Part shown: one piece after another, positions 6,834-62,763 of the stretch
Numbering within the stretch: position 1 is the first letter of the stretch
Layout: every line of letters begins with the position of its first letter
Assembly (NCBI RefSeq): GCF_030055435.1
Contig: NZ_JASFYG010000003.1
Coordinates: forward strand, 29,619 to 93,618
DNA from: Methanothermobacter sp.
GTDB lineage: Archaea; Methanobacteriota; Methanobacteria; Methanobacteriales; Methanothermobacteraceae
DNA length: 64,000 nucleotides
Direction: 5' to 3'
Notes under the pieces: generated by a model
The model's database searches: none
Told to the model about the DNA's origin: nothing
What the model saw: the letters and a program-made list of their open reading frames with translations, nothing else
Program-made: the position numbers and the translations under genes

Positions 6834-7496
6834 TCAGGCTGTGGCCTGAAGTTCCTGGTAGGTCTGTTTCACCTGCCTGTAGGTCCATTTGTATTTCCAA
6901 GTGTATCTCCACTTACCGCCTCTCTTGTACCATTTTTTGTACCATTTCTTGACCTTAACATTTGATATCCTGACCTTGTTGACCAGTTTTGCGGGCGTGT
7001 TTTTGATTATGCCCATCATTGTTGTGTTTGTGCTGTTTTTGAAGTATTTCAGGATTGTGTTTCCTGTTAGGGCGATTGTTCCGTTGTAGAGTGTGATGTT
7101 GCCGTTGCCTATCTGGTAGTATGTGCCGTTTTCGAGTTCTATGATTGGTGTCTGGTTGAATATCAGTTTAGGGTATGTTCTGTTGGTGATGTTTCCTGTT
7201 AGGGCGTGGTTTATTATGCCGTATTTCACGGTGCCGTTTTTGATTACCATGTACTTTATGTTGAGTGTCCTGTTGAGGACAATTGGGGCTGTGTACCGTG
7301 TACTATTAACTGTCGGGATGGAACCATCAATGGTGTAGTAGACGCCATCTGCGGGTGCTGAGGTTACTACAAAGTCCCCGGAACCCCCTATTGGCAGTTC
7401 TCCAACGCTTATATCATCGGTTGCAGCTGCCTGTCCCATTCCAGCAATAACCATTGCGACAAAGACAGCCATAATTAAACCAGCTGTTCTTTTCAT
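6834..7496 (-). CDS. Secreted protein with chitobiase-C-like repeat and basic-aromatic tail (paralogue A)
   Basis: Start at ATG 7496, preceded by GGAGG with 6-base spacing; the longer frame to 7526 has no ribosome site. A signal peptide (KRTAGLIMAVFVAMVIAGMGQAAA) is followed by a segment GVYYTIDGSIPTVNST-YTAPI typical of the CHB_HEX_C_1 Ig-like domain, then an Asn/Thr-rich middle with many N-x-T sites. The last 40 residues are an unusual Lys/Arg/Tyr/Trp pattern (KKWYKRGGKWRYTWKYKW). No enzyme motif. It is a paralogue of the 7882-8493 gene and shares a perfect 287-bp block with it. Probable wall-associated protein. Confidence 0.75.
   Translation of the reverse strand: MKRTAGLIMAVFVAMVIAGMGQAAATDDISVGELPIGGSGDFVVTSAPADGVYYTIDGSIPTVNSTRYTAPIVLNRTLNIKYMVIKNGTVKYGIINHALTGNITNRTYPKLIFNQTPIIELENGTYYQIGNGNITLYNGTIALTGNTILKYFKNSTNTTMMGIIKNTPAKLVNKVRISNVKVKKWYKKWYKRGGKWRYTWKYKWTYRQVKQTYQELQATA
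6997..7283. repeat. 287-bp block identical to 8018-8304
   Basis: Base-by-base comparison shows no difference over 287 bases between the two paralogous genes (offset 1021), while the sequence just outside both ends diverges clearly. It encodes the Asn/Thr-rich middle of the protein. This pattern points to recent gene conversion. Confidence 0.9.
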
Positions 7497-7881
7497 ACCA
7501 AACCTCCCTTTTAGTATGTAGTACATTCAGATACATTAATCATAAATTATATATAAAATTTTTTATTTAATCATAATTAGAAACTATTAAATACTAAAAT
7601 AAAATCAAGTTTAAATATTATAAAATTAATTTGAATTAATCTATATTTAAACATAACACATTTTGGCAATAACCTGTGCCTCTGCAAACTTCTCTGAGCT
7701 GGTGAAAATCAGAAGACCTCATCTAAGCTTTCATAAATCAAAACATCATTCAGTTATAGAATGCTAAAAGAGATCGATATTTATTTTAAAACCACAATAT
7801 GAAGCATATAAGCTCCAAATAGTCCAGTTTAAGATTTTTTTACATATAAAAAAAGGAAAGTGGGCGGTTAAAGTTTGAAAG
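7497..7881. other. AT-rich intergenic region between the paralogues
   Basis: This 385-base gap holds the leader and promoter of the 7496 gene: minus-strand TATA core TTTTATATATAA at 7547-7558, predicting initiation near 7530. The rest (7570-7881) is A/T-rich with several A- and T-runs that may terminate the upstream minus-strand transcript ending at 7882. No ORF or RNA gene recognised. Confidence 0.5.
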
Positions 7882-8493
7882 CTAGATTGGCTGGAGTTCC
7901 CTGTAAATCCTCTTTACCCATCTGTAGGTCCAGTAGTATCTCCACTTACCGCCTCTTCTGTACCATTTCTTAACCTTGACCTTGATCCATTTGGCCTTTT
8001 TGACAGCTATTGCAGGTGTGTTTTTGATTATGCCCATCATTGTTGTGTTTGTGCTGTTTTTGAAGTATTTCAGGATTGTGTTTCCTGTTAGGGCGATTGT
8101 TCCGTTGTAGAGTGTGATGTTGCCGTTGCCTATCTGGTAGTATGTGCCGTTTTCGAGTTCTATGATTGGTGTCTGGTTGAATATCAGTTTAGGGTATGTT
8201 CTGTTGGTGATGTTTCCTGTTAGGGCGTGGTTTATTATGCCGTATTTCACGGTGCCGTTTTTGATTACCATGTACTTTATGTTGAGTGTCCTGTTGAGGA
8301 CAATCGGAGATGTGTACTTGGTACTTTTTACAGTGGGCATGGCACCGTTGATGGTGTAGTAAACACCATCCTCTATAGTTGTATTTCCAGCCACAGCAAC
8401 TTTTAAGGGTGCATTAGCAGCCACAGCACAACCCGTTCCAGCCAGGACCGCCACAGCAAAAAGAACCATGACGACGCCAGCATTCATTTTCAT
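7882..8493 (-). CDS. Secreted protein with chitobiase-C-like repeat and basic-aromatic tail (paralogue B)
   Basis: A protein of 203 residues with signal peptide (MNAGVVMVLFAVAVLAGTGC), a GVYYTINGAMPTVKST-YTSPI segment of the CHB_HEX_C_1 type, the Asn/Thr-rich middle identical to paralogue A, and a basic-aromatic tail (KKWYRRGGKWRYYWTYRW). GGAGG lies 7 bases before ATG 8493. The Cys at the signal peptide end (AGTGCAV) could be a lipid anchor, but archaeal lipoboxes are uncertain outside halophiles. Paralogue B lacks the short Asp/Gly-rich insertion after the signal peptide that A has. Probable surface protein of unknown function. Confidence 0.75.
   Translation of the reverse strand: MKMNAGVVMVLFAVAVLAGTGCAVAANAPLKVAVAGNTTIEDGVYYTINGAMPTVKSTKYTSPIVLNRTLNIKYMVIKNGTVKYGIINHALTGNITNRTYPKLIFNQTPIIELENGTYYQIGNGNITLYNGTIALTGNTILKYFKNSTNTTMMGIIKNTPAIAVKKAKWIKVKVKKWYRRGGKWRYYWTYRWVKRIYRELQPI
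8018..8304. repeat. 287-bp block identical to 6997-7283
   Basis: Second copy of the identical block described for 6997-7283. Confidence 0.9.
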
Positions 8494-54898: not shown

Positions 54899-55690
54899 AT
54901 GAGAAAAGCACCGTTGAAATTTCTAACCATTCTTGTTACAGTCGCATTCCTCCTTTCATCTGTGCCCGTGGTTTCAGCACTCAAAACCGAGATCATCTAT
55001 ACAGGTACAGGGGGAGATGTATCAAAGAACTATTACATCAGGAACTACTCTCCCCGCACACCTGTAACATCAGAGGTTTTTCAGGCTGCAAAAAAGGGCA
55101 CTCCAATGTTCACATTTGGAAATGGTAGCAGGAAGGTTATAATAGTTGCAGGTGTCCATGGAAATGAACTTCCAGCTTCAATTGCCGCTGTTAAACTCAT
55201 AAATTATCTTGCAGGTAAAAGGATAAACGGGACGGTCTACGTTGTACCGTTCCTCATACCATCGTCCACTGCCCGGAGTTCCAGGTACTGGAATGGTAAG
55301 AACCCCAACAGCATTGCAAATGTTAGGGGCACACCATCCAACAGGATAGTTCAGCTGGCTGCTTCAAGGGGTGTGAGTGCCGTGGGGGACTTCCACTCAA
55401 CAAGGCCCGGTGGAGTGCCAGGGAAAACATCGATTCTCTGCACAAGGATACCAACCTATGAGAGCTACAGGATGGCATCATATATGAGCCGCTACAGTGG
55501 ATCAGCCCTCATACCATCACAGGTGGCAGGTAAGGATTATCCAGGAGCCCTTGAGGATGTCTGCAACCTTGCAGGTATCCCTGCAGTTACAGCGGAGGTC
55601 AGGTCCCCCCATGGTTCAGTTGCATCAGGGAGTGTTACAAAATCCTACACCCAGATGATAGCCTTCCTTAAGTACAACAGCATCATCTGA
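54899..55690 (+). CDS. Secreted M14/AstE-like zinc hydrolase
   Basis: A protein of 263 residues. A signal peptide (RKAPLKFLTILVTVAFLLSSVPVVSA) precedes a zinc-peptidase-like domain: GVHGNELPASIAAVKLI gives the H-x2-E, GDFHSTRPGGVPG the third ligand, and AVTAEVRSP the catalytic Glu. This matches the succinylglutamate desuccinylase/aspartoacylase-M14 group. As a secreted member in a pseudomurein organism, a peptide or isopeptide substrate in the wall is conceivable, but this is inference. GGTGAGGATTT precedes ATG 54899. Confidence 0.75.
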   Translation: MRKAPLKFLTILVTVAFLLSSVPVVSALKTEIIYTGTGGDVSKNYYIRNYSPRTPVTSEVFQAAKKGTPMFTFGNGSRKVIIVAGVHGNELPASIAAVKLINYLAGKRINGTVYVVPFLIPSSTARSSRYWNGKNPNSIANVRGTPSNRIVQLAASRGVSAVGDFHSTRPGGVPGKTSILCTRIPTYESYRMASYMSRYSGSALIPSQVAGKDYPGALEDVCNLAGIPAVTAEVRSPHGSVASGSVTKSYTQMIAFLKYNSII

Positions 55691-55932
55691 ATGAGGTCAC
55701 CATACCTAGGGAAGATAATTTGGGTGTTCAATGGCCTCTTAACAGAGGTAATTTTATTGTGGAACTCCCCAGAGCCGAAGTTATAGGTATAGAGGCATCT
55801 GCTGTGGGGGAATAATCTGTTCCTTCCTTTTTTGGAACATTATCCATATCCGTTATTTTTTGCAGAAAAAGCATATTAAATTAAAAGAGCCAAAAAGGGT
55901 ATTTTAAATTAAAAAAGATGTTTTTGGCACAT

Positions 55933-57603
55933 CTATGTTATGAGGTCCTTTATGAACTGGACCACAGTGTCAATGAGGCTCTCGCCCACCTTAACAGATG
56001 ATGGGAACACCATCTTGCTCTTATCTGTGTGGTTCTGGATTATCTGTGCAAACATCAGTGTGTACTCGTCCCTTCCAAGCTTCTTATCACCCACTGAAAC
56101 ATAGGATGGAAGCCTCCTGTTGGTCTTTGCGAATTCATAGACCCTCCTTGCAGCATCACGGTACTCAGACCTTGTGAGTGTCCCAGTGTAGGTGTTGCTT
56201 GATGAACTGGCGTCTGATATTGCAGTTGTGTTCTTTCTGATGGGAAGCCCTGCTATGTACTGGGATGCAAGGTAGACCCACTCCTCCCGGGCCATTTCGG
56301 TTGTATTACCACTGACTATGCGGCGGGCATCTGCTGAAAGAGTGGTTGGATCGATCTCATGCCTTGCGATGTAAACTGATGAATTCACGGTCCTCATGTG
56401 CTCGCCATCTGCAGAGTAGGCGTAGTCGATGAGATTCATTGCTGTGAAGTGGACCTGCTGGCTCTGGGGTAAAACCTTTGGTTCCAGGAGGAGAATACCT
56501 GCACTCCTGAGGTACTCTGAGGGTTTACTGATACCTGCAAAGTAGACATTTGAGAAGTTATCATCCCAGGCCCTTGACAGGTAACTGGTCTTCTCAAGGT
56601 TGAGGCTACCGTAGTTCACATAGGCCACGCCGTCGAGCCTGGATGCGTATGATCTGAGGTAACCTGATTTTATTCCTGAGATGGTACTGTACATCGTCCC
56701 GGGACATGCAGCCGCTATGTAAACGGCAAGAGAGCCTGGGGGGGCATTCTTAATGGCACGGTCGGCTTCCCCGGGGGCAGGTGACCTTTCATCTATTATA
56801 ACCCTGGCTGACCCTGCTATCTCTGCCTTTATGGATTCCATTAGTGTTCTTCCATTAACACCATTCAGCCTGTCTGAACTCATGTATATGGTCTCCGGCG
56901 TACCTGAGGCGTAGCGGTTCATTATAACGGATGTGGTTGGATAACCTGATGACCAGAGAACCGTTCCATTGACTCTAACTGATGTGGATGTGGAGAATAC
57001 GCCTGATCTCCATAGTGTCATCGCCACTGGGAGAAGCGACCTGGGTGCCATAACCCTTGGTCCTGATTTTGGCTGAAGGGCGCTCAGTGTGGCTGAATCA
57101 CTGCCATACCAAACCCTCTGGTAGGGTATGCCAAGGCCCTTCAGTGATGATGAGGGTATGGATGATGCAGGGGCGCATATGATTATCTTCTTGGGCTTCA
57201 AACGTTTTATTTCGGTTCTGGTGGATGATGGCAGCGTTTTTCCACTTATAAGGAGGGGTGCATCATTTTTTATTGCAGCATAGGCTGCTGAGATATCTGA
57301 CCCGGTTCCAAGTACAACCACGTTGCTCCTGGTCCAGTAACGTGCAAGTGAGGATGTCCTTGCAGGGATACGGGTTCCGTTAACCTTAATGTCACCAACA
57401 ACAACAGTGTCCATCCCCTTAACATACTTGAGGACGGACTTCTCTGGAGTGTAACTGCTCACCACAAGCCCGCTTTTTGTATGTGCCGCTGCAGGTGCCG
57501 TTATAATGGCATGGGATGAATCGGTTACAAAAACAGCACCGGCTGCAGGCGATACAAGAAACAGGAACATGATGACCAGTGCAGATACCTTAATCTCTCT
57601 CAT
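55933..57603 (-). CDS. Secreted CWB2-repeat protein with a pseudomurein-binding repeat
   Basis: A protein of 556 residues. A signal peptide (REIKVSALVIMFLFLVSPAAGA) is followed by CWB2-like segments (VVVLGTGSDISAAYAAIKNDAPLLISG, PKKIIICAPASSIPSS) at about residues 85-160, a Ser-rich middle, and at about 473-530 a pseudomurein-binding repeat (LTRSEYRDAARRVYEFAKTN then LPSYVSVGDKKLGRDEYTLMFAQII). It should be bound to the pseudomurein sacculus from outside. No catalytic domain is clear. It is convergent with the secreted hydrolase. Confidence 0.78.
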   Translation of the reverse strand: MREIKVSALVIMFLFLVSPAAGAVFVTDSSHAIITAPAAAHTKSGLVVSSYTPEKSVLKYVKGMDTVVVGDIKVNGTRIPARTSSLARYWTRSNVVVLGTGSDISAAYAAIKNDAPLLISGKTLPSSTRTEIKRLKPKKIIICAPASSIPSSSLKGLGIPYQRVWYGSDSATLSALQPKSGPRVMAPRSLLPVAMTLWRSGVFSTSTSVRVNGTVLWSSGYPTTSVIMNRYASGTPETIYMSSDRLNGVNGRTLMESIKAEIAGSARVIIDERSPAPGEADRAIKNAPPGSLAVYIAAACPGTMYSTISGIKSGYLRSYASRLDGVAYVNYGSLNLEKTSYLSRAWDDNFSNVYFAGISKPSEYLRSAGILLLEPKVLPQSQQVHFTAMNLIDYAYSADGEHMRTVNSSVYIARHEIDPTTLSADARRIVSGNTTEMAREEWVYLASQYIAGLPIRKNTTAISDASSSSNTYTGTLTRSEYRDAARRVYEFAKTNRRLPSYVSVGDKKLGRDEYTLMFAQIIQNHTDKSKMVFPSSVKVGESLIDTVVQFIKDLIT

Positions 57604-57612
57604 GGAATCACC

Positions 57613-58077
57613 CTAAAACTGGGATTCTATCTCCTCGGTCTCAATGAGGCGCTCACAGTAATAGCATCGCAGCATCACAGGTTCCTTTGATATGACATAG
57701 AACCTGTTCTCAACGCCCTCATCGCTGTTTGTGATGCAGTTGGGGTTGGGGCACCTCAGGATGCCCCTAACCTCATCCAGAAGCCTCACCTTGGCCTTTT
57801 CAACAATCTTGTAATCCCTTATGATGTTTATGGTGGCCCGCGGGGCTATCAGGGCTATCTGATCCACCTCTGATGACTCAAGTTCCCTGTTCTCTATCTT
57901 AACAATGTCCTTGGAGCCAAGCTGGGATGAATCCATGTTCATGGCAACCGTCACCTTGCTCCTTCCATCAGGTAATCCAAGGATGTTGAGTACATTGAGG
58001 GCCCTGTTGGCGGTTATATGGTCTATAACCGTCCCGTTCTTTATCGGCTTGACCCGCAGTTCAAAGGGTTTCTTCAT
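57613..58077 (-). CDS. pyrI: Aspartate carbamoyltransferase regulatory chain
   Basis: A protein of 154 residues. The N-terminal allosteric domain ([27 protein letters not shown]) and the C-terminal zinc domain (CPNPNCITN and CYYCERLI, four Cys) are both visible. It binds nucleotides and holds the PyrB trimers in the dodecamer. pyrB is not in the window. Nine bases separate it from the secreted CWB2 gene on the same strand. Confidence 0.95.
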
Positions 58078-58095
58078 CTCATACCCACCTTCAGA

Positions 58096-59304
58096 TCACC
58101 TTCTACCTAGATTGAAGGTTTCAATGAACTTTGCATACACCGGCCTTGTTATGAACACACCTATAAGCACCCCAAGGACGGTGGTGAATGCGAAACCTGA
58201 AAGGAGACCTATACCCGTGGCACCCCTTGAAAAGCCCACGTAGGCCAGTGGAAGCATTGCAGCTATCAGGGTACCTGCAGATGCGAATATTATGAAGAAG
58301 GCGTCCTTTATCCTGAACTTCCGTCGGGTTCTTCTGCCCTCACCTGCAAGCACCTCGTCTGTTATGATGATCTGGTCATCCACACCGGTACCTATGGCTG
58401 CCAGTATACCTGCTATTGCCGCAAGGTCAATGTTCCACCTTATAACAGCAGCTGCGCCCAGTATGATTATGAGTTCCGCAAGGGTCGTCATGAAGATGGG
58501 AACAACAAGGATGGGGGTCCTGTAGCGTATTATGAGTATGACGGCAATTGCAAGGATAGCAAGAAGCCCTGCGATCAGCGCACCCTCTGCGAACTGCCTT
58601 CCAAGTTCAGCGGATACACTGCTCACACCAACAATTTTAACCTTCACAGGAAGAGACCCTGATTTCAGGAGTGTCTCTATCTCCTTGGCCTGGACCTCAG
58701 CCTCCTCCTTGCTGTTCTCAGCCCCTGTTATACGGACATCCGTGGTCGGCTTTCCCGTTGCAACCTCCGGTGAAATCTCAGGGGAGGTGATCAGACGGTC
58801 ATCCAGGTACATGTTGACCGGCTGCCCTGCTTTGCCCCTGGCAGCCTCGGCGAACCTCTGCGCCCCTGCAGTTGAAAGCTTGAATGGCACCTCCCATTCA
58901 TTGGCTGTGATTATGGGTGCCTGTACACTCACAATGTCCGCCCCTGTGAGGACGGTTTCGTTTCCTATCCTGGCCTCAAATTTACCGGGTGTCCCAACTA
59001 TGTCTGCAACCTGATCAGGCTGGACACCTGCAATCTCAACTATAACGTTCTGATCGCCACTGGCACGCACCTTCACATCCTTGACACCGAATATGTTTAG
59101 CCTCTTGTCCAGCACGCTTGTCACTGTATTCATTGTGGCAGCATCCACCGGCTTTTCAAGCTGTATCTGTATGAGTGAACCCCCCTTGAGGTCAAGACCC
59201 TGCTGGATCCCCAGGGTTGACACCGCAGCTATACTAGCTGCAACAAGGACGAAGAGGAGTATAACCCTGTAATCTTTGAGGAATTTTGAAACCTTTCTGT
59301 TCAT
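58096..59304 (-). CDS. secD: Protein translocase subunit SecD
   Basis: A protein of 402 residues with six helices and the SecD signatures [17 protein letters not shown] (first periplasmic-type domain) and [42 protein letters not shown] is the conserved helix-4 motif. Archaeal SecDF supports export with SecYE. It overlaps secF by four bases (ATGA). Confidence 0.94.
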
Positions 59305-60146
59305 GCTTTAACCTCCAGGTACCACCTTAGAATTCCAAGGTTCATGAGCCAGGTGGTTATGATGTCTGCAAGGAGTCCTATTATGAGTACAGCGGCTATG
59401 TTACTCAGGACCTGTGCCTCAGGCATAAGGAAGACAGTGACCAGGTACAGGGCTGTCATTGAGGCTATGGCTGATATGGACATGGTGAGACCTGTCTTTA
59501 GGGCCCCAAGAGCCCTCTGGTTTATGTCCCCCTTCCTCTGTTTCAGGATCCTGGTTGTGAGGAGAATATCCGTGTCCACACTGTAACCTATGAGCATGAG
59601 TATGGCACCTACTGAGGCAAGTGAGAGCGGTATTCCAAAGGCGGACATACCACCAATCGCTATTATGATGTCGGAAGCTGCTGCAAGGATAACAGCAATG
59701 GATGGTATCGGATCCCGAAATATTATGAAAACTGTTATCGACATGAAGAGGAATGCGAATCCAACGGCCCAGTATATCTGATTCAGCGCCTGCTTGCTCA
59801 GGACGGGTCCGACCGACTTGTAACTGTTTATGGTTGCGGTTCCCTTAAGGGCCTCATTCACCTTGACAACATCCACATCGGTACCGAACTGTACCGTCGC
59901 CCTTTTACCTGTCACCGAGAGCACCTTCACATCATCCAGGCCCAGTTCACCCTTTAGGAGTGATTCCAGTTCCGGACCACTGATGCTCTTCTCGAGGGTT
60001 AGGTCTGCAAGCGCCCCACCCTTGAGGTCCACGCTTTCATTGAGACCATGGAAAACCACAAGGAGAAGGGCTAATAGTGTTATTGCTGCAGGTATTGCTA
60101 TGAGCGGCTTGTATGATCTGAACATCCTATCAATCAATGTTATCAC
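59301..60146 (-). CDS. secF: Protein translocase subunit SecF
   Basis: A protein of 281 residues. [20 protein letters not shown], and [22 protein letters not shown] are the SecF motifs, with six helices predicted. It pairs with SecD for late steps of protein export, which suits the number of secreted proteins in the window. Confidence 0.94.
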
Positions 60147-60167
60147 CTGATCATCTTTGGCAGTTCA

Positions 60168-60665
60168 TCATCTGGAGCTGTATATCTTCAGGTCCTTTTC
60201 TGCCATAATCTTGAATGTATCCTCCCTCACCTGGATAAGCTCCTTTCCACCGGTTTTTTGCATGAAGAAATTCACTATACGGCCCCCGCGGGCCCTTATC
60301 TTTTCAGACATGCGTTCGATTACTCCTTCACCACCCTGTCTGCTCATGGTTGTAAAGGGTATCACGTCCTTTCCCATGAAGTCTGCCCTGTCAATGAAGG
60401 TTATCACTGCAGGTGCGGGCTTCCCGGCCCAGGTTGGAGTACCCAGGTATATGAGGTCATATTCTGATAATTCAACCTTTTCTGGACTGATGTGGGTCTT
60501 TGATTCCCTAAGCGCATCTATTGAGGACTTAAAACTACTTAAAAATCCTTTTCTATCCCTAAGATCCTTGATTTCAATTAGATCGGCATTCAATTCCTCT
60601 GCAAGTGTCTTTGCCACCATTGCAGTGTTTCCTGTGCGTGAATAGTAGATCACACATGTCTTCAT
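60168..60665 (-). CDS. Flavodoxin-family protein
   Basis: About 165 residues from ATG 60665 (GAGTGAT upstream); the longer frame to 60686 is not favoured. It starts with TCVIYYSRTGNTAMVAK, the FMN phosphate-binding motif, and has LIYLGTPTWAGKPAPAVITF. Substrate unknown; an electron carrier or NAD(P)H-quinone-type reductase is typical. Confidence 0.88.
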   Translation of the reverse strand: MKTCVIYYSRTGNTAMVAKTLAEELNADLIEIKDLRDRKGFLSSFKSSIDALRESKTHISPEKVELSEYDLIYLGTPTWAGKPAPAVITFIDRADFMGKDVIPFTTMSRQGGEGVIERMSEKIRARGGRIVNFFMQKTGGKELIQVREDTFKIMAEKDLKIYSSR

Positions 60666-60762
60666 TGTATCACTCAGCTTTATCAACTAAGAGATAATCT
60701 GATCCATTTATTTATAATATAATTTTCTGTTCCCTTAATAATTTCTGGAATCCAGTGGAATA

Positions 60763-61855: not shown

Positions 61856-61917
61856 GCATGGCATAGAATTCTTGAATGTCCACGGGGAGGAATTACCCCC
61901 ACAATGGAGGCGGTAAA

Positions 61918-62763
61918 ATTAAGCGTCACTCGATATTTGCAGTGCTGCTACTTCTCGGGGTGGCAGTGTTGCCTGCAGGGTATGTGAGTGCAGCTGATTC
62001 AAATATAACATCCAATGCAACGGTTAACAGCACAGCATCCAGTACCTCTGCGTATACAAAGGTATCTCCATCAACGACAGTGAGCTACACCTACCATGAG
62101 TATGTCCCGTATACTGTCAGGGTAAAGGTTTCCCACATGAAGCCCTACACAGTGAAGGTTAAGACACCCATAAAGAGGTACTACTACAGGAAGGGAAAGT
62201 ACAGGGTGCGGTACGTTTACAGCTACACCTATGTGACCAAGTACCGTAAAACCTACAGATGGGTTACAGAGACACGCTATAGAAAGGTTACGCGGATCGG
62301 GTATGCTGAGATGGGCGATTACCTCAGGGAAACAGAAAACTGCCAGGTTTCGGACCCCGAAATTTCTTCTCTAAGTTCTAAACTCACTGAAGGGTGCACT
62401 TCAACCTATGAGAAAGCTGTTCGCATCTTCAAGTGGGTCAGGGATAATATAGACTACAGCTTCTACTACAATACAAGAAACGGTGCAGTTGAAACGCTCC
62501 ACAAGAGGTCAGCCAACTGCTGTGACCACACACATCTTCTGGTTGCTCTTGCAAGGGCTGCGAACATACCCGCAAGGTACGTGCATGGTAAATGTGTATT
62601 TAGAAGCGGAAACACCTATGGACACGTCTGGGGACAGTTATATATCAACGGAAAATGGTATGATGCAGACGCAACAAGCTTCTCGAACACTCTTGGCACT
62701 ATAAAAAACTGGGACACATCCAGCGCATTCATAAAGGGTGTTTACGCAGAATTACCATTCTAG
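61918..62763 (+). CDS. Secreted transglutaminase/cysteine-protease-fold protein with basic-aromatic region; probable ATT start
   Basis: A protein of 281 residues (from ATT 61918). GGAGG at 61906-61910 lies 7 bases before ATT, which gives [20 protein letters not shown] as a clean signal peptide; the ATG at 61876 would add 14 odd residues and lies at or before the predicted transcript start. Residues 60-127 are rich in Tyr, Lys, Arg and Val ([16 protein letters not shown]), similar to the two paralogues at 6.8-8.5 kb. The catalytic domain (150-270) has the triad C201 ([11 protein letters not shown]), H236 (YGHVWGQLY) and D251 (WYDADATS). Phage endoisopeptidases PeiW and PeiP of this fold cut pseudomurein; this could be a host counterpart, but no binding repeat is present. 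Confidence 0.82.

Follow-up and report, generated by a model that had tools for sequence, protein, structure and literature searches.

A closed cell wall needs to be cut if the cell is to grow. To our knowledge, the pseudomurein hydrolases characterised so far all come from phages or prophages. Among them, the endoisopeptidases PeiW, PeiP and PeiR (family C71) are transglutaminase-like enzymes with a Cys-His-Asp active site, in which a catalytic domain is combined with pseudomurein-binding repeats (PMBRs) and for which a wall peptide is the proposed substrate.

For the host itself, PMBR-bearing transglutaminases (OG0000044) have been proposed as cross-linkers that make Glu-Lys bonds (Leahy et al., PMC2812497; Lupo et al., PMC11915815). 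The terminal residue has to be removed before cross-linking, and in the former study (Figure S6) this required step has no assigned enzyme. The latter study, published in 2025, also lists OG0000169, which is specific to pseudomurein archaea and is described as a secreted 'Zn peptidase' whose function is unknown; in cluster B, it lies three genes away from the MobA-like gene (PMC11915815). Through OG0000169, the idea of an endogenous zinc peptidase of the wall is partly in the literature already.

Zinc enzymes of two other groups offer a comparison of fold. The AstE/AspA family (PF24827) includes succinylglutamate desuccinylase, aspartoacylase and DoeB, with H-x2-E...H metal ligands and a catalytic Glu. 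Csd4, a D,L-carboxypeptidase of H. pylori, and MpaA, a murein peptide amidase, act on murein peptides that contain D-amino acids.

Here we compare these systems with a locus of Methanothermobacter sp. that lies in a stretch of 64,000 nucleotides, the whole of which was analysed and is called the window below. The genome is of 1.67 Mb and contains 28 PMBR matches, an Ehb-type hydrogenase operon and a CfbE-like gene, a gene content in keeping with Methanothermobacter. We put at about one half the probability that the product of the gene at 54.9 kb of the window is a zinc-dependent amidohydrolase with the AstE/AspA (M14-like) fold, which the cell secretes to act on its own pseudomurein wall.

The secreted hydrolase and its fold

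The hydrolase gene (54899..55690, + strand) encodes 263 amino acids. A GGTGA-type ribosome site lies 5' of its start, as it does for the gene that faces it. The N-terminus of the protein, MRKAPLKFLTILVTVAFLLSSVPVVSA, was judged by eye to be a signal sequence of about residues 1-27 (54899..54979, + strand), and coincides with a helix (residues 7-19) that has low confidence in an AlphaFold (AF2) model otherwise of high quality (pLDDT 93.8; alignment input of 47 natural relatives). The protein matches AstE_AspA_cat (PF24827) above the curated Pfam cut-off (36.7 bits against 25; E 4.2e-9). The match to Peptidase_M14 (PF00246) is below threshold (13.8 bits; curated cut-off 21.6), and those to the NCBIfam equivalogs for AstE, aspartoacylase and DoeB are far below theirs (13-14 bits; cut-offs 180-403). 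When the model was compared with the PDB by Foldseek, aspartoacylase-family structures came out on top (2qj8, 6twm and 3cdx; 1.6e-10 for aspartoacylase/DoeB), with Csd4 (4wcl, 1.9e-8) and MpaA (4axv, 2.0e-8) near them and with TM-scores of about 0.5-0.6. Thus the AstE/AspA family supplies the best matches by both sequence and structure; sequence assigns the hydrolase to no family in common with Csd4 and MpaA.

An earlier note, made from the sequence alone, had described the protein as a secreted AstE/M14-like hydrolase with H-x2-E, H and E ligands, and this description holds. The H-x2-E motif (H87, E90), H166 and E233 vary little or not at all in alignments of 47 and of 120 sequences. Of the 120 distinct sequences, all have H87, G88, N137, D164 and H166, and 117 keep each of E90, R129 and E233. 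The predicted roles are zinc ligands for H87, E90 and H166, the oxyanion residue for R129 and the base for E233. In a few members of the family (L068:7227-8030 and L073:5913-6719), E90 is changed to Q and the catalytic Glu (E233) is also replaced; these are likely to be inactive copies or pseudoenzymes.

In the known AstE/ASPA deacylases, the arginine of the DLNR motif binds the carboxylate of the substrate. The window hydrolase differs from them in having Ser in place of this Arg, in being secreted and in having relatives that are fused to wall-binding modules. The enzyme could still be directed to the wall as a deacylase, removing acyl groups (the N-acetyl of wall sugars, or acyl groups of wall peptides or of surface glycoproteins) and cutting no peptide. 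Its best matches, in sequence as in fold, are indeed deacylases of the aspartoacylase/DoeB type and not peptidases, and because the fold relatives include small-molecule deacylases, the preference for an amide bond is not fixed. We consider this unlikely, however, as the carboxylate-binding arginine is missing and as Csd4 and MpaA are about equally close in fold. Peptide cutting would be the likeliest chemistry for the family.

Distribution and fusions to wall-binding modules

A profile of the family was searched against 152 genomes of the pseudomurein-walled phylum and 244 genomes of other archaea; Methanopyrales were not knowingly among those sampled. At E <= 1e-3 the family is found in 145 of the 152 phylum genomes (about 95%), and in 88 of the 91 good-quality ones. 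At E <= 1e-40 it is found in 143 of the 152, and in none of the 244 others. Orthologues in archaea without pseudomurein, which the earlier note had said would speak against a wall role, are therefore absent at this threshold from the genomes searched. In 80 of the 244 other archaea there are matches of at most 46 bits, which cover part of the profile and are at the level of generic AstE. The distribution of PMBRs runs parallel (147/152 phylum genomes, against two weak matches among the 244). The best 80 loci from 84,980 species genomes likewise bear titles of Methanobacteriaceae type or no finer name. Searching IMG/VR gave no contig that matches the family, an absence that is in keeping with a role in the host rather than in phages and, together with the use of zinc, sets this cellular enzyme apart from PeiW, PeiP and PeiR. 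It should be noted that one genus, represented by three genomes of good quality (G019, G028 and G029), lacks the family and yet has PMBR proteins and an OG0000169-like family, so the hydrolase is not indispensable for such a wall.

Fusions are the best evidence that would place the enzyme at the wall, it being understood that a PMBR fusion speaks for place and not for substrate. In L042 and L043, orthologues nearest the window group (62-67% identical), two or three PMBRs lie C-terminal of the hydrolase domain, an architecture that recalls the Pei enzymes; in the tree, the window orthologues have the PMBR-fused forms as their sister clade (support 0.93). L058, a more distant member, has a PMBR with Ig-like repeats, and many proteins of Methanobrevibacter type begin with Big_1/Big_3_5 Ig-like repeats, followed by the hydrolase domain. 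In 'Methanobacteriaceae archaeon UBA587' (L097, the same locus as L044), the hydrolase gene lies between argC and the gene of a secreted transglutaminase, with a PMBR-transglutaminase next in line. The hydrolase and the adjoining transglutaminase have an N-terminal Tyr/Lys-rich module in common, a stretch of about 30 residues being nearly identical in the two. A similar basic module in L045 is a weaker case because its composition bias is strong. The PMBR fusions and the module common to a transglutaminase support a wall-directed enzyme; the family is one of secreted, lineage-restricted zinc hydrolases, very probably directed to the wall. One surface protein of 1,597 amino acids from a methanogen relative (L056:8309-13099) unites the hydrolase domain with Ig repeats, a lectin-like domain and a peptidase of papain type.

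The name of the family and annotation practice would instead make the enzyme a metabolic or scavenging AstE/aspartoacylase, unrelated to the wall; in the M. ruminantium annotation paper, the astE proteins are assigned as metabolic enzymes (PMC7772410). Such a function is very improbable for a secreted protein whose family is fused to PMBRs and surface Ig repeats, is restricted to pseudomurein archaea and scores far below the AstE and DoeB equivalog cut-offs. The literature that we searched nowhere describes the family as a wall enzyme. The family provides a short, testable list of candidate host wall enzymes. If they do act on the wall, their annotation as enzymes of amino-acid metabolism would be corrected, and they might serve as new lytic tools against methanogens or as new targets in them.

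The facing PMBR protein and its synteny

The protein encoded opposite the hydrolase (55933..57603, - strand) has 556 amino acids and is secreted, again with a signal sequence judged by eye. The earlier note had called it a CWB2 protein ending in a pseudomurein-binding repeat, and the second half of this description is the better founded. The match to PMBR (PF09373) is above the cut-off (50.1 bits, E 2.1e-13); there is a strong repeat at residues 472-504 (56092..56190, - strand; 42.3 bits) and a weak one at about residues 506-539 (55987..56088, - strand; 18.2 bits, cut-off 24.9). Assignment to CWB2 by HMM was rejected, as PF04122 has no match in this protein or elsewhere in its genome. Weak CWB2 matches were found in two of three distant homologues (best E 0.0038), and a low-confidence model (pLDDT 61), used as a hint only, had as its top Foldseek matches Cwp6 and SlpA, both of them CWB2 proteins. 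The CWB2 likeness of the N-terminal part thus appears to be only a remote resemblance. In MTH719, binding to methanogen cells required three PMBR motifs, and a pair of motifs bound bacterial spheroplasts only (PMC3124540). The facing protein, with its strong repeat and its weak one, falls short of that number and may by itself bind poorly.

Both reading frames have exactly the spans first reported, and they converge tail to tail with a T-rich stretch of 242 bp between their ends. The earlier note had suggested that the two could belong to one wall-trimming set; the wider comparison does not support the convergence as evidence of a functional pair. Adjacency and convergence with the hydrolase are retained in 12 of the 13 genomes that have near-full-length orthologues of the facing protein. 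However, in two genera the gene order is conserved over a block of about 20 kb that runs from a FAD oxidoreductase gene to hisA and takes in secDF, pyrI and argC. Because the whole block is syntenic, adjacency is weak evidence for a pair; we rejected it as strong evidence, the secDF/pyrI/argC/hisA block being equally conserved. The two proteins also differ in occurrence: the hydrolase family is found in 142 of 150 genomes, the facing protein in 14 of the 150. Nor is it the rule that hydrolases bring a binding module of their own just in those genomes that lack the PMBR protein; this complementarity was rejected, because in several genera the hydrolase has a single domain and the PMBR protein is absent as well.

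Genes for flavodoxin, secF, secD and a pyrI-like protein (57613..60686, - strand) stand directly upstream of the PMBR gene on its own strand and either overlap or lie about 10-22 bp apart. The tight spacing on one strand (55933-60686) makes it likely that these genes form one transcript that ends in the PMBR protein, which would thus possibly be co-transcribed with the export genes secF and secD. We are therefore somewhat inclined to see the hydrolase and the PMBR protein as neighbours by inherited synteny alone, with no functional connection: the block is ordered alike in two genera, the PMBR protein apparently ends a separate operon, and many genomes have the hydrolase and not the PMBR protein. 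The adjacency kept in 12 of 13 genomes and the direct fusion of PMBRs to the hydrolase in relatives argue the other way, and leave the pairing weakly supported.

Position 138, the transglutaminase and a second candidate family

In Csd4 the order of active-site residues is metal ligands, Arg86 (oxyanion), Asn93, Arg94, His128 and Glu222, and Arg94, which makes a salt bridge to the free C-terminal carboxylate, has been named the determinant of carboxypeptidase activity (PMC4220969). When the hydrolase family is aligned to Csd4, R129, N137, position 138, H166 and E233 fall in matching order, R129, N137 and E233 corresponding to Arg86, Asn93 and Glu222. The window hydrolase has Ser at position 138, the place of Csd4 Arg94 and of CPA Arg145; by this alignment it lacks the arginine that an M14-type carboxypeptidase has for the C-terminal carboxylate and that Csd4 requires. 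With Ser in place of the clamp Arg, no free carboxylate would be needed at the S1' side, which leads us to predict an endo-amidase and not a carboxypeptidase. That the enzyme cuts inside peptides rather than trimming their ends is a reasoned guess, the role of S138 being read from the Csd4 alignment and not from a ligand structure.

Position 138 varies within the family. It is Arg in 66 of the 120 sequences and S, K, T, Q, E, A or D in the other 54, which include the window hydrolase. Every one of these 54 has H238, whereas the 66 with Arg138 divide at position 238 into 55 with F, N or P and 11 with H; some of the Ig-fused forms have R138 together with H238. The R138/H238 classes do not make simple clades in the tree, so Arg138 was probably lost or regained more than once. 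A paralogue in the same genome, beside argG (L041:9995-10747), has Arg138.

These observations bear on whether the hydrolase could be a true carboxypeptidase that shortens the stem peptide by its terminal residue ahead of cross-linking by the transglutaminase. The M14-like fold, secretion and near-universal presence in the phylum would suit such an enzyme, as would the step to which no enzyme is assigned in Leahy et al. (PMC2812497). We regard it as distinctly unlikely, since the clamp Arg is lost in the window orthologue group and either the argG-side paralogue, where it is kept, or a family of OG0000169 type would fit the step better.

For the wall-directed amidohydrolase that we favor, sequence or models back the signal sequence, the fold, the completeness of the set of metal and catalytic residues, the limitation to the phylum and the fusions of relatives to wall-binding modules. 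In the proposed mechanism, zinc-bound water activated by E233 would hydrolyze an amide bond in the stem or cross-link peptides of the wall during growth or turnover. Given S138, endo-cutting inside the peptides would be most likely, and the argG-side paralogue would be the exo-acting counterpart. The PMBR protein, as a wall-bound surface protein, may help in concentrating the enzyme at the wall; this is the weakest step.

The protein at 61.9 kb (61876..62763, + strand) is secreted, begins with a Tyr/Lys-rich module and has the transglutaminase fold that the earlier note had seen in it (PF01841, E 1.4e-25; Transglut_core, 90 bits). Its match to the Pei family, Peptidase_C71, is below threshold (19.7 bits, cut-off 22). 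Four paralogues with a transglutaminase domain, PMBR-bearing, are found in the genome, and the protein is thus a paralogue of the host PMBR-transglutaminases of OG0000044 (Leahy et al.; Lupo et al.). The note had grouped it with the hydrolase in the host's own wall-trimming set. A wall-directed hydrolase agrees with this grouping, on the grounds of the fusions and the restriction to the phylum. The second trimmer does not, because such transglutaminases have more often been proposed as makers of cross-links than as trimmers (PMC2812497, PMC11915815); the 61.9-kb protein may instead be the opposite partner of a cutter. We offer tentatively a more specific version: the hydrolase might be an endogenous zinc-dependent pseudomurein endo-amidase, the first of its kind, in which a deacylase of AstE/AspA fold that reads a carboxylate was brought to the cell surface and became, through loss of the clamp Arg and gain of H238, an endo-acting cutter of L-amino-acid cross-links, and which with the exo-acting paralogue and the co-localised transglutaminase would form a cut-and-relink set of pseudomurein archaea. 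Elsewhere in the window, two genes (6837-7526 and 7885-8493, both - strand) encode secreted Fn3_assoc/chitobiase-C-like proteins with C-termini similar to the Tyr/Lys-rich module found in the transglutaminase (E 2e-7 and 3e-6, in composition-biased sequence).

The hydrolase family resembles OG0000169 of Lupo et al. in secretion and in restriction to pseudomurein archaea. The two do not appear to be the same. The cluster-B position given for OG0000169 is occupied in this genome by L088:13590-14279 (- strand; G000:C1) and not by the window hydrolase, and identity was not supported, as the cluster-B gene belongs to a separate family and the profile comparison with the hydrolase is weak (probability 20%, pair P 0.0012). 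The cluster-B family, which has no Pfam match, is probably OG0000169, going by its reported position. It is present in 100 of 100 sampled genomes, with 1-7 copies each in the genomes listed, and has invariant H-P-x-E, D-x-H and Y-E motifs in register with those of the hydrolase; the gene in this genome adjoins that of a PMBR protein. On these motifs it is a candidate for a second secreted metallohydrolase family, and remote homology to the hydrolase family is plausible but weak. Also near cluster B, L088:1188-1694 (+ strand) encodes a small secreted protein that has a Tyr/Lys-rich module, shows a Cys...His...Asp pattern, lacks a Pfam match above cut-off and is possibly a minimal transglutaminase-like protein.
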